Source of the DNA: Maricaulis salignorans
GTDB lineage: Bacteria; Pseudomonadota; Alphaproteobacteria; Caulobacterales; Aquidulcibacteraceae
Assembly (NCBI GenBank): GCA_945891505.1
Contig: CAMDDL010000010.1
Coordinates: forward strand, 1 to 64,000
Direction: 5' to 3'
DNA length: 64,000 bases
Within the stretch, counting starts at the first letter, position 1. Each line of letters begins with the position of its first letter. The notes under the pieces were generated by a model, which worked only from the letters and a program-made list of their open reading frames with translations, made no database searches and was not told the DNA's origin. Both the position numbers and the translations under genes were made by a program. Shown piece after piece: positions 7,393 to 17,923 of the stretch.

Positions 7393-7887
7393 ATGCGGTG
7401 CCCATTCTGCGGATTCGCTGACACCCAGGTCAAGGACTCTCGTCCGGCTGAAGATGGGGTTTCCATCCGGCGTCGCCGTCAATGTCCGGCATGCGGCGGC
7501 CGTTTCACGACCTTTGAGCGGGTGCAATTGCGGGAGTTGAAGGTCGTTAAACGGGATGGGGCGCGTGAATTGTTTGATCGCGACAAACTCCATCGGTCGG
7601 TAGCGATCGCTTTGCGCAAACGCGAAGTGCCAGAAGAGCGGATAGAGCATTTGATCTCTGGCATCGTGCGGCGCTTGGAGACCTCGGGCGAGACAGAAAT
7701 TCCAACCAGTACGGTTGGTCAGTTCGTGCTGGATGCTTTGGGCGAGACCGATCCCGTCGCCTTTGTGCGCTATGCGTCTGTCTATCGCGATTTCCGCGAG
7801 GCTGAAGACTTCAACCGCTTCGTTGATGACGAGTTAGGCGCGTTGAAAGAAAGCCTCAAACGCCGGGGCAGTGTGCGTGAAGACTAA
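7393..7887 (+). CDS. nrdR: Ribonucleotide reductase regulator NrdR
   Basis: A nucleotide-sensing repressor of ribonucleotide reductase genes, which it binds at NrdR boxes. The 164-residue protein has a complete N-terminal zinc ribbon (CPFCG at residues 3-7 and [12 protein letters not shown] near residue 31) followed by an ATP-cone domain beginning [16 protein letters not shown] (about residues 50-140). The length is normal. An AAGGAT ribosome-binding site precedes the ATG. It is first in the run nrdR-ribD-ribE-ribH-nusB-thiL, a conserved order. Confidence 0.95.
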
Positions 7888-7894
7888 GGTGGCT

Positions 7895-8569
7895 ATGGAT
7901 CGCCCCATCATCACGCTGAAATTAGCGACCAGTCTGGATGCACGCATTGCGACGGTCACCGGGGCGAGCCAATGGATCACGGGTCCAGAATCGCGTGCTG
8001 AAGTGCATCGCATGCGCAGTACCCATGATGTGGTACTGACCGGGATCGGCACCGTGCTTGCTGATGACCCTGAACTGACCGCGAGGCTGGACCCGCCACC
8101 TGCACGCCAGCCATGGCGGGTTGTGCTTGACCGGGATGGGCGGCTGCCGCCTGCAAGTAAGTTGGTCCAAACGACAGACAAGGCCGGTCTGATCTGGTGT
8201 ACCGGTGACCATGTTGCTGCCGAGGAGGTAGCGGAGCTGAGTGGGGTGAAGCATCATCTTCTTGGCCGGAGCCAAGCTGGGACCGTCGGGTTGGATCTGA
8301 ATGAAGTGGTGCGTCTCCTCACAAACACCTACCAAATCAAAACCTTGATGGTGGAAACAGGCCCCGTCTTGGCAACCGCTTTCCTGCGGGCCGGGCTGGT
8401 AGATCACATTGCTTGGTTTCGCGCACCCTTACTTCTCGGGGGCGATGGACGCCCGGTGTTTGAAAGCCTAAATGTTCAAGACTTGTCGCAAGCGTGGGTC
8501 CTTCAGCAAACTGACCATAAGCAGTTTGGTCGAGACGTTCTTGATTGCTTCGACCTCAGCCCAACTTAG
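7895..8569 (+). CDS. ribD: RibD reductase domain only (5-amino-6-(5-phosphoribosylamino)uracil reductase)
   Basis: NADPH-dependent reduction of the ribosylamino-pyrimidine intermediate in riboflavin synthesis. The 224 residues match only the C-terminal half of bifunctional RibD: ITLKLATSLDARIATVTG, ASQWITGPESRAEVHRMR, DVVLTGIGTVLADDPELTAR and a late VETGPVLATAFLRAGLVD segment. The N-terminal zinc deaminase domain (HAE and PC-x-C-type motifs) is absent, and nrdR ends only seven bases upstream, so nothing is hidden there. The ATG at 7895 was preferred to a GTG at 7871 that would overlap nrdR. The deaminase step must be encoded elsewhere or missing. Confidence 0.85.
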   Translation: MDRPIITLKLATSLDARIATVTGASQWITGPESRAEVHRMRSTHDVVLTGIGTVLADDPELTARLDPPPARQPWRVVLDRDGRLPPASKLVQTTDKAGLIWCTGDHVAAEEVAELSGVKHHLLGRSQAGTVGLDLNEVVRLLTNTYQIKTLMVETGPVLATAFLRAGLVDHIAWFRAPLLLGGDGRPVFESLNVQDLSQAWVLQQTDHKQFGRDVLDCFDLSPT

Positions 8570-8580
8570 AAGGCAAACCG

Positions 8581-9189
8581 ATGTTTACAGGGATTATCAC
8601 CGATATTGGGACCATTGTGGCCATAGACCACAGGCCGGGTACAGATGCAGCCATCACAGTCGATAGCGGCTATGATGCAACAAGTTTGTCCTTAGGCGCT
8701 TCGATCAGCCATCAGGGCGTCTGCCTGACGCTGATCTCGTTTGAACCAATCGCGACGGGTTCGCGCTGGCGGGTGCAGGTCAGTCAAGAAACCCTTGATG
8801 TGACGTGCGCCAAGGAGTGGCAGGTTGGCACGGCCTTAAATCTTGAGCGTGCGCTGAAGCTGGGGGATGAGTTAGGTGGACACATGGTGTCAGGCCATGT
8901 CGACGGAATCGGCGAAGTCATCGAGGTAACACCTGAAAACGAGAGTCACCGGGTAACGATTCGGGTTCCTGAGCCCTTGGCCAAATATGTCTCGACCAAA
9001 GGGTCCATCGCGATCGACGGTGTGTCTTTGACGGTCAATGAAGTGGATGATGTGACCTTTGGGATCAATATCATCCCCCATACCTGGCAGGTGACAACAT
9101 TGGGTCGCCTAAAGCTAGGTACACGTGTTAATCTTGAAGCGGATCAAGTTGCACGTTACGTGGAACGCATCCTATCTCGTAAGACCTGA
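8581..9189 (+). CDS. ribE: Riboflavin synthase alpha subunit
   Basis: Dismutates two molecules of 6,7-dimethyl-8-ribityllumazine into riboflavin and the pyrimidine substrate of lumazine synthase. The 202-residue protein has two lumazine-binding repeats: the first starts MFTGIITDIGTI, the second follows GGHMVSGHVDGIGEV near residue 100 and contains SIAIDGVSLTVNEV. An AGAAGG ribosome-binding site precedes the ATG at 8581. It lies 11 bases after ribD and 35 bases before ribH; in many relatives ribBA occupies that last position but is absent here. Confidence 0.94.
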   Translation: MFTGIITDIGTIVAIDHRPGTDAAITVDSGYDATSLSLGASISHQGVCLTLISFEPIATGSRWRVQVSQETLDVTCAKEWQVGTALNLERALKLGDELGGHMVSGHVDGIGEVIEVTPENESHRVTIRVPEPLAKYVSTKGSIAIDGVSLTVNEVDDVTFGINIIPHTWQVTTLGRLKLGTRVNLEADQVARYVERILSRKT

Positions 9190-9224
9190 CGACCCCTTCA
9201 CCAGCTTCAACCTTGGACTAGGCT

Positions 9225-9692
9225 ATGACCCTTTCTTTCGATCCGCCCCACCTATTGTTTGTTGTTGGTGATTATTACGCCCATATTGCGGAAGAATTGG
9301 TGGCTGGGGCCGCTGAGGCGATTAAGGCCGCTAAGGGTACCTATGATTTAATCAAAGTACCTGGTGCCTTCGAAATCCCGGCTGTTATCGCCCACGCCGA
9401 ACGCGCAACGCATCGTCCTGCTGGTCGTCACTATGATGGTTATGTGGCCTTGGGCTGCGTCATTCGCGGTGAAACCTCGCATTATGACTATGTTTGCGGC
9501 GAAAGCGCCCGCGCCTTGATGGAGCTTTCGGTCGAAGGCCTGCCAATCGGCTATGGTATTTTGACGGTTGAAACCGAAGCCCAAGCGCTTGTTCGTGCCA
9601 AGCGCGATCAAAAGAACAAAGGCAAGGATGCAGTTATTGCATGCCTAACCGTGTTGTCGGTCAAGCGGCGCCTGAACATGGGCGGCGTATGA
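9225..9692 (+). CDS. ribH: 6,7-dimethyl-8-ribityllumazine synthase
   Basis: Condenses the ribitylamino-uracil with 3,4-dihydroxy-2-butanone 4-phosphate, the penultimate riboflavin step. The 155-residue protein has the typical KVPGAFEIPAVIAHAER substrate segment, YDGYVALGCVIRGETSHYDYV and LPIGYGILTVETEAQAL. Its stop overlaps the nusB start by four bases (ATGA), an arrangement that favours coupled translation. Confidence 0.95.
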   Translation: MTLSFDPPHLLFVVGDYYAHIAEELVAGAAEAIKAAKGTYDLIKVPGAFEIPAVIAHAERATHRPAGRHYDGYVALGCVIRGETSHYDYVCGESARALMELSVEGLPIGYGILTVETEAQALVRAKRDQKNKGKDAVIACLTVLSVKRRLNMGGV

Positions 9693-10174
9693 CCCGCACA
9701 AAACCTTCGTCGATCACAGATGCGCGTCGCGGCGCGCGATTGGCTGCAGTGCAAGCGCTCTATCAAATGGAAATCTCTGGCGGCGGCGTCAAATCGACAG
9801 TGCGTGAATATCTAGACCACCGCTTAGGTGAAGACAGCGAGACAGGCCCGTTGGAGACGGCGGACGTTGATTTCTTTCGAGCCCTTGTCGAAGGCGTGGT
9901 CGAAGAGCAAGCCTTGATCGATGCGTCCATCAAATTACGACTGGCAAAGGGATGGCGGCTGGAACGTATTGATTCGATTGTACGCGCCGCTGTCCGGGTG
10001 GCGACCTTTGAACTTTTGCGGCGAGCCGATGTTCCTGTTGCGGTTGTGATCGACGAATATGTTGGCATTGTGAATGCGTTTTTCGATGGCCCAGAAGGTG
10101 GGTTTACCAATGGTTTATTGGACCGTTTGGCGCGCGAGCTGAATGCCAACGACCTTCGCCAGCTAACCTCTTGA
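9689..10174 (+). CDS. nusB: Transcription antitermination factor NusB
   Basis: Binds the boxA RNA with NusE (S10) to prevent premature termination, chiefly in rRNA operons. The 161-residue protein shows ARRGARLAAVQALYQMEISG near the N-terminus, the central RLERIDSIVRAAVRVATFEL helix and the C-terminal VVIDEYVGIVNAFFDGPEGG motif. The ATG at 9689, overlapping the ribH stop, was chosen over an upstream in-frame ATG buried inside ribH. The ribH-nusB-thiL order is common in proteobacteria. Confidence 0.95.
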   Translation: MTRTKPSSITDARRGARLAAVQALYQMEISGGGVKSTVREYLDHRLGEDSETGPLETADVDFFRALVEGVVEEQALIDASIKLRLAKGWRLERIDSIVRAAVRVATFELLRRADVPVAVVIDEYVGIVNAFFDGPEGGFTNGLLDRLARELNANDLRQLTS

Positions 10175-17814: not shown

Positions 17815-17923
17815 GGGGGGTGGAGATCGGCGGTGGACGTAGTCCTCGCCAATTCGGTCAGGTCCGGAAGGAAGCAGCCGCAACGAGTTTCGCTATGGGT
17901 CGCCGTTCGGTCTCCACCCTTTT
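17815..17923 (+). ncRNA. ffs: Signal recognition particle RNA, small bacterial type
   Basis: The conserved apical loop and asymmetric internal loop GGTCAGGTCCGGAAGGAAGC (from about 17856) is unmistakable. The ends pair: GGGTGGAGA (17818-17826) with TCTCCACCC (17911-17919), followed by a short T run. The size, about 100 bases, is that of the 4.5S-like form without an Alu domain. It sits just upstream of dnaX, a common alphaproteobacterial position. The ends are estimated from pairing. Confidence 0.95.

Follow-up and report, generated by a model that had tools for sequence, protein, structure and literature searches.

GTP cyclohydrolase II (RibA) is generally seen as the bacterial entry to vitamin B2 synthesis and as a drug target. 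The riboflavin (rib) locus of Maricaulis salignorans described here includes no ribBA gene and only the reductase half of RibD, which raises the question of how the missing steps would be supplied. The window is the whole stretch of 64,000 nucleotides that was analysed, at the start of the 79-kb contig C10; the source genome (G000) that was searched is a 3.07-Mb draft of 88 contigs with 99.6% completeness.

A Reductase-Only RibD in the rib Locus

The locus has the order glyA-nrdR-ribD-ribE-ribH-nusB, without ribBA. On the + strand, nrdR (7393-7887; TIGR00244, 163 bits) is followed after seven bases by ribD (7895-8569, +), which encodes a stand-alone pyrimidine reductase of 224 residues from ATG, and then by ribE for riboflavin synthase (8581-9189, +; NF006767, 231 bits), ribH for lumazine synthase (9225-9692, +; TIGR00114, 102 bits; PF00885, 135 bits) and nusB (9641-10174, +; TIGR01951, 118 bits), whose start codon is uncertain and whose listed open reading frame overlaps ribH. 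The gap between ribE and ribH is 35 bases (9190-9224, +) and corresponds to the ribB-ribX site of other genera with a split RibD. The window also contains a small SRP RNA gene at 17821-17919 (+).

The reductase models PF01872 (157 bits, residues 4-215) and TIGR00227 (171 bits; cut-off 150) account for the whole RibD protein, and the domain-model search found no deaminase domain in it. TIGR00326, the model of bifunctional RibD, matches only from model position 140, and its 139 bits are below the cut-off of 156. The N terminus of the protein coincides with the domain boundary, and no remnant of a decayed deaminase precedes the reductase domain. The first-pass annotation, which had described a reductase-only RibD of 224 residues seven bases from nrdR and a 35-base ribE-ribH gap lacking ribBA, is thus borne out by the coordinates, which are exact, and by the domain searches.

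A sequencing error creating a false nrdR-ribD junction was also considered as the origin of the short gene. This is very unlikely and was rejected: the same reductase-only gene recurs in 8/8 genomes sampled from the genus, among them a single-contig assembly of 3.5 Mb. In each, the one reductase domain is encoded by an open frame of 236-245 residues, a length that a fused RibD would exceed.

A Stand-Alone RibD Deaminase Beside gpmA

The source genome contains one RibD reductase domain and two deaminase-family proteins. One of the latter is TadA and was rejected as a RibD partner. The other is a stand-alone RibD deaminase encoded beside gpmA on another contig than the window (G000:C4:22301-22963); it matches TIGR00326 over model positions 1-144 with 156.4 bits against a cut-off of 156.35. 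In this genome, therefore, the two RibD domains are in two separate proteins and not in one chain. Searches of the rest of the genome and of close relatives, as proposed in the first-pass annotation, have thus located the deaminase and extended the split to the whole genus sample, in which 8/8 genomes have a reductase-only frame and a RibD-type deaminase frame, one of each.

Residues H52, E54, C77, and C87 of the deaminase (the His, the Glu, and both zinc Cys) are invariant in all 21 aligned sequences, which are those of the 30 fetched loci that were cleanly cut by motif scripts; the reductase and the fused RibD alignments, made likewise, contain 20 loci each. The source protein has the zinc motif with one residue inserted between the two cysteines in the alignment. 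Several other stand-alone deaminases (L047-L051, L053, L056, L057, and others) also have an inserted residue and an altered stretch between the zinc cysteines, e.g., PCGARSSGRKSC.

A gpmA-like gene adjoins the deaminase gene, or is one gene off, in 31/31 loci (the 30 best hits and L212) and in 20/20 further loci; gpmA, purU, and some other neighbour genes were named by eye from sequence. Conservation of this neighbour across families f1 to f4 fits a single old event.

The deaminase protein runs on for about 60 residues past the deaminase domain, and this tail suggests how the split arose. In a profile comparison by hhalign, the tail matched the stand-alone reductases at their positions 135-174 (probability 81.5, E 1.1e-5, score 34.3), and the best of 100 column shuffles scored 21.6. 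The tail also aligns at the matching place with the fused RibD alignment, though more weakly (probability 35, E 4e-4); the middle part of the reductase is missing from it. These similarities point to the tail as a decayed reductase remnant. The simplest history is probably that an ancestral RibD was duplicated and that each copy then lost one half: the operon copy would have kept the reductase, and the second copy, beside gpmA, the deaminase with about 60 decayed reductase residues. After such complementary decay, the two RibD proteins would act in trans.

A comparable division is present in plants, in which two RibD-derived proteins, PyrD and PyrR, divide deamination and reduction and the deaminase protein has a decayed reductase part. 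The deaminase described here resembles PyrD in this respect, but its reductase part is reduced to about 60 residues; unlike PyrR, the reductase begins at the domain boundary and has no decayed deaminase part. In the titles and abstracts of the openly licensed literature, a scope outside which most subscription papers lie, no description of a split bacterial RibD was recognised.

The split of RibD is old and inherited, and is no artefact. A single-frame RibD is present elsewhere in the order: it has at least 369 residues in all 22 RibD-bearing genomes of Parvularculaceae, and 323-392 residues in nine of the order's 10 genomes with a high-scoring RibA match, RibD being split in the remaining one (G098).

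RibB Relocated in a Fusion With a Zinc-Less RibA-Like Domain

The source genome has one RibB domain and one RibA-like domain, both in the same 444-residue open reading frame at G000:C10:72457-73791 (L002:1024-2358, - strand), 8.5 kb beyond the window end. A ribB elsewhere in the genome, for which the first-pass annotation had advised a search, does therefore exist. Among other genera with a split RibD, the RibB-RibX gene lies between ribE and ribH in 10/10 fetched rib loci (L153-L161, L165). In the genus of the window and a neighbour genus it is relocated, and all seven loci (G000:C10:72457-73791, L163, L164, and L330-L333) encode an N-terminal helix-turn-helix (HTH)-like domain, which passes the Pfam cut-offs (HTH_26, HTH_3) in one locus and is below them in the other six. 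The HTH-RibB-RibX protein is a possible one-protein regulator of the riboflavin pathway. No FMN riboswitch was found in the three HTH-RibB-RibX loci searched (L162-L164), nor at gathering score in the window or in the ribBX, creatininase, deaminase, and folE loci of the source genome; of the above 10 rib loci of other genera, eight were searched and none has it, and one of four canonical-RibA loci has it (L336). An RNase P RNA gene lies near ribBX at L162:13713-14132 (+) and is also present in L163 and L164.

The RibA-like half lacks the C-x10-C-x-C zinc site, so that the protein is by its domains a RibBX and not a RibBA. Among the low-scoring RibA-like rows, all three zinc cysteines are absent in 38/38 (36 distinct genes, two of which appear twice), and they are present in 11/11 canonical rows (eight distinct genes, three of which appear twice); 3 of the 52 loci, L066, L074, and L075, were dropped from this count for want of a RibB-RibA frame; two of them, L074 and L075, show the complete cysteine motif. 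The RibX domain was also aligned to 4i14, and in the RibX rows the EGRGxGL stretch is either changed or could not be located. By the established chemistry of GTP cyclohydrolase II, loss of the zinc ligands means that no GTP ring opening is expected.

RibBX proteins of other Proteobacteria have been described as RibB linked to a RibA-like domain that has no GTP cyclohydrolase II activity (PMC10012899, citing Brutinel et al. 2013, Nouwen et al. 2021), and passages of the same article report by complementation that RibBX of Aeromonas salmonicida has retained only RibB activity (PMC10012899). The protein described here is like RibBX of Shewanella, Aeromonas, and Bradyrhizobium in joining RibB to a RibA-like domain devoid of zinc ligands (PMC10012899), and differs from these in the HTH-like domain fused in front in two genera. 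Another difference is that A. salmonicida has a separate ribA (PMC10012899), whereas none was found in the source genome.

The RibX domain might instead open GTP by a zinc-free route, making the fusion a working RibBA. The domain is kept across families, with PF00925 scores of about 95-127 bits in the order; however, the uniform loss of the three cysteines, the state of the EGRGxGL stretch and the complementation result for A. salmonicida make this highly improbable. In the reading that we prefer, a rearranged pathway would lead from GTP to riboflavin; RibB would be supplied by the relocated HTH-RibB-RibX fusion, and its RibA-like half should not open the GTP ring. We estimate a probability of roughly 0.8 that both parts of this reading hold together, i.e., that RibD is split into two genes and that RibB comes from the relocated, zinc-less RibX fusion.

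No Canonical RibA Found in the Genome and in Most of the Order

A PF00925 profile search of the 99.6% complete draft found no canonical RibA, its sole match being the RibX-type domain without zinc cysteines. The first-pass annotation had supposed that the missing functions might have moved elsewhere in the genome: this holds for the deaminase (contig C4) and RibB (contig C10), but not for GTP cyclohydrolase II. The eight genomes sampled from the genus give the same picture.

Canonical RibA is lacking far beyond the source genome. Among 150 genomes of the order, a RibA match of at least 190 bits is present in 10, only matches of at most 127 bits in 104, and none in 36, including 30/30 Parvularculaceae, a family sample that has neither RibA nor RibX. 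The order is that of the genome service, which includes Parvularculaceae, a family to which NCBI gives its own order; family f5 was called Parvularculaceae from the names of four rib-type FolE hits. In a class sample of 385 genomes, a high-scoring match is present in 159, only a weaker one in 123, and none in 103, where the types were divided by E-value at a self-chosen cut between 5e-44 and 1.1e-45, cysteines were checked in the order alone and some genomes are incomplete. Both the order and the class counts treat related genomes as independent. The split of RibD and the lack of canonical RibA are common to most sampled genomes of the order.

That no canonical RibA was found might mean that the source cell needs riboflavin from outside or takes up an intermediate of the pathway, as the first-pass annotation had offered. 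Auxotrophs would be expected to lose rib genes, yet RibB, both RibD halves, RibE, and RibH are all present and are kept in several families of the order; the gene content thus makes such dependence very unlikely. Another enzyme would then have to open GTP.

The Creatininase-Family Protein and the BrbF Route

In Sinorhizobium meliloti, the formamidase BrbF is reported to be essential for riboflavin synthesis, and its GTP-opening partner ('BrbG') is stated in the same paper as not known (Yurgel et al. 2022, PMC9478397). The postulated BrbG might work with a creatininase-like formamidase in the source genome also, with FolE uninvolved, and we regard this as a serious candidate at somewhat below even odds. 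In agreement with it, the source genome encodes one creatininase-family protein (G000:C17:30445-31197; PF02633, 186 bits), which belongs to the creatininase superfamily and is present in all eight sampled genomes of the genus. In both systems, then, alphaproteobacterial riboflavin synthesis would not rest on RibA and a creatininase-family protein is present (PMC9478397).

Unlike in the S. meliloti route, many RibX-only relatives lack the family: PF02633 is present in 90/150 genomes of the order, but in 0/14 of genus g13 and 1/12 of genus g4, both RibX-only. In the class sample it is no commoner with low-scoring RibA (69/123 genomes) than with high-scoring RibA (95/159). The source protein itself is far below the creatininase cut-off (78 versus 235 bits), but is no more than a putative BrbF. 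BrbF as a general substitute for RibA is thus unsupported. Among the neighbours of creatininase genes in 20 loci, no BrbG candidate was found; no neighbour family occurs in more than nine loci, and those that recur do so at varying distance.

All 14 genomes of g13 have RibX only, no creatininase family, and exactly one FolE, so that neither BrbF nor an extra FolE explains this genus: either one FolE serves two pathways or another enzyme acts. In eight of 11 g13 loci (L212, L339-L343, L346, and L347), a gene identified by eye as that of a PurU-like formyltetrahydrofolate deformylase lies between gpmA and the RibD deaminase gene, and in L212 folE then follows the deaminase gene.

A Distinct FolE in the rib Operon of Parvularculaceae

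FolE-type GTP cyclohydrolase I opens the same GTP ring as RibA, via formamidopyrimidine and diaminopyrimidine intermediates, and would be the best candidate for the GTP-opening enzyme. In Parvularculaceae, the order ribD, ribE, ribH, folE on one strand is found in all 22 RibD-bearing genomes, all loci having been fetched, and an FMN riboswitch above gathering score precedes ribD in 22/22 (7/7, 8/8, and 7/7 in three sets). Where detected, ribB lies between ribE and ribH (7/7 loci), and its motif is present in 7 of the other 15. The motif search for ribH missed 8/22 loci, and a second search found ribH in all 22; in the 14 loci with the motif, the earliest possible folE start ranges from 14 bases before to 4 bases after the ribH stop. 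Riboswitch-led ribD-ribE-ribB-ribH-folE operons of the family are in loci L146-L152, L196-L210, and L216-L219. In L152 (G035), the FolE frame extends upstream into an HTH-like stretch (275 residues), which is a fusion or a chance read-through.

The rib-type FolE proteins form one clade (26/26, FastTree support 0.998) in a midpoint-rooted tree of 139 sequences. Y15, F32, S116, C160, and R or Q at 163 are fixed in 22/22, and 34/34 compared FolE proteins have other residues there; one of the fixed changes adjoins the Q-E pair that we take to be guanine-binding. Residues C76, H78, H79, S101, K102, Q117, E118, H145, C147, and R151 are invariant in the clade, and presumably correspond to the residues that bind zinc and take part in catalysis in ordinary GTP cyclohydrolase I. 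The rib-operon protein of L148, the one protein tested, passes the FolE models TIGR00063 and NF006825 like ordinary GTP cyclohydrolase I, but the clade is set apart from ordinary FolE by its fixed changes and its place within a rib operon led by an FMN riboswitch.

At least four named contigs carry rib-type FolE; on three of these, ribD, ribB, and ribH are its neighbours, and on the fourth, which is short, ribH is. For the 76 remaining named FolE loci among the matches listed, the fetched flanks of at most 6 kb contain no rib motif. Rib-type FolE outside Parvularculaceae is unsupported: the best 30 FolE matches in the 385 class genomes, a sample with five members of the order and no Parvularculaceae, include no RLQSQE form in the 25 motif-readable rows (five rows were not readable) and no rib motif in flanks of about 1.5 kb; one row (L316) shares Y15.

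Alternatively, the entry of folE into the rib operon might serve nothing more than joint control of folate and flavin synthesis. Retention of the presumed catalytic residues and the match of the tested protein to FolE models speak for this, but 22/22 genomes have one or more FolE in addition to the rib-type copy, i.e., at least two in every RibD-bearing genome. Also, the rib-type copy is present in 22/22 genomes with RibD and in 0/8 without (Fisher p 1.7e-7, kinship ignored), in a family sample that has no RibA. Co-regulation alone is thus possible but a rather unlikely explanation, and we consider that a FolE-type enzyme has probably, though by no means certainly, replaced RibA in Parvularculaceae, as judged from gene content and operon structure. 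The eight genomes without a full-strength RibD reductase match (G040, G045, G059, G094, G104, G129, G134, and G149; 98-99% complete) have only folate-type FolE (9/9 sequences, G040 having two copies), and are candidates for riboflavin auxotrophy on the basis of the RibD and RibA searches.

The case is more tentative in the lineage of the window. The source genome, like its genus, has a single FolE; this is an ordinary one, and its gene and the rib genes lie on different contigs. Over 186 residues, the protein shares 99.5% identity with FolE of Aquidulcibacter paucihalophilus TH1-2, which places the genome in or very near Aquidulcibacter, a genus assigned to Caulobacterales by NCBI. Whereas Parvularculaceae would use a dedicated paralogue, this lineage would possibly rely on the single FolE that it has, alone or together with a BrbF-like formamidase. 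Against a role of FolE in place of RibA, the rib-type FolE of Parvularculaceae keeps the presumed catalytic residues of the ordinary enzyme, and its sequence gives no sign of a shortened reaction; as the FolE product would be a triphosphate, an extra phosphatase would also be needed. That FolE opens GTP in the source genome is a doubtful, if conceivable, extension. The general proposal that FolE replaced RibA, as a riboswitch-controlled paralogue in Parvularculaceae and, shared with folate synthesis, as BrbG in RibA-less relatives including the genus of the window, can similarly be put forward only with reserve. In the titles and abstracts of openly licensed literature, no description of FolE in place of RibA was recognised; most subscription papers lie outside this scope.

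Implications for Riboflavin Synthesis

By score, 140/150 sampled genomes of the order are without canonical GTP cyclohydrolase II. RibX domains still match models of this enzyme, which can hide the gap in annotation. If the general proposal is true, the need of FolE for folate synthesis as well would explain why BrbG was missed by the S. meliloti transposon screen. The Parvularculaceae operon offers a concrete candidate for the missing enzyme, and makes the BrbG question, as posed by Yurgel et al. 2022 (PMC9478397), testable.
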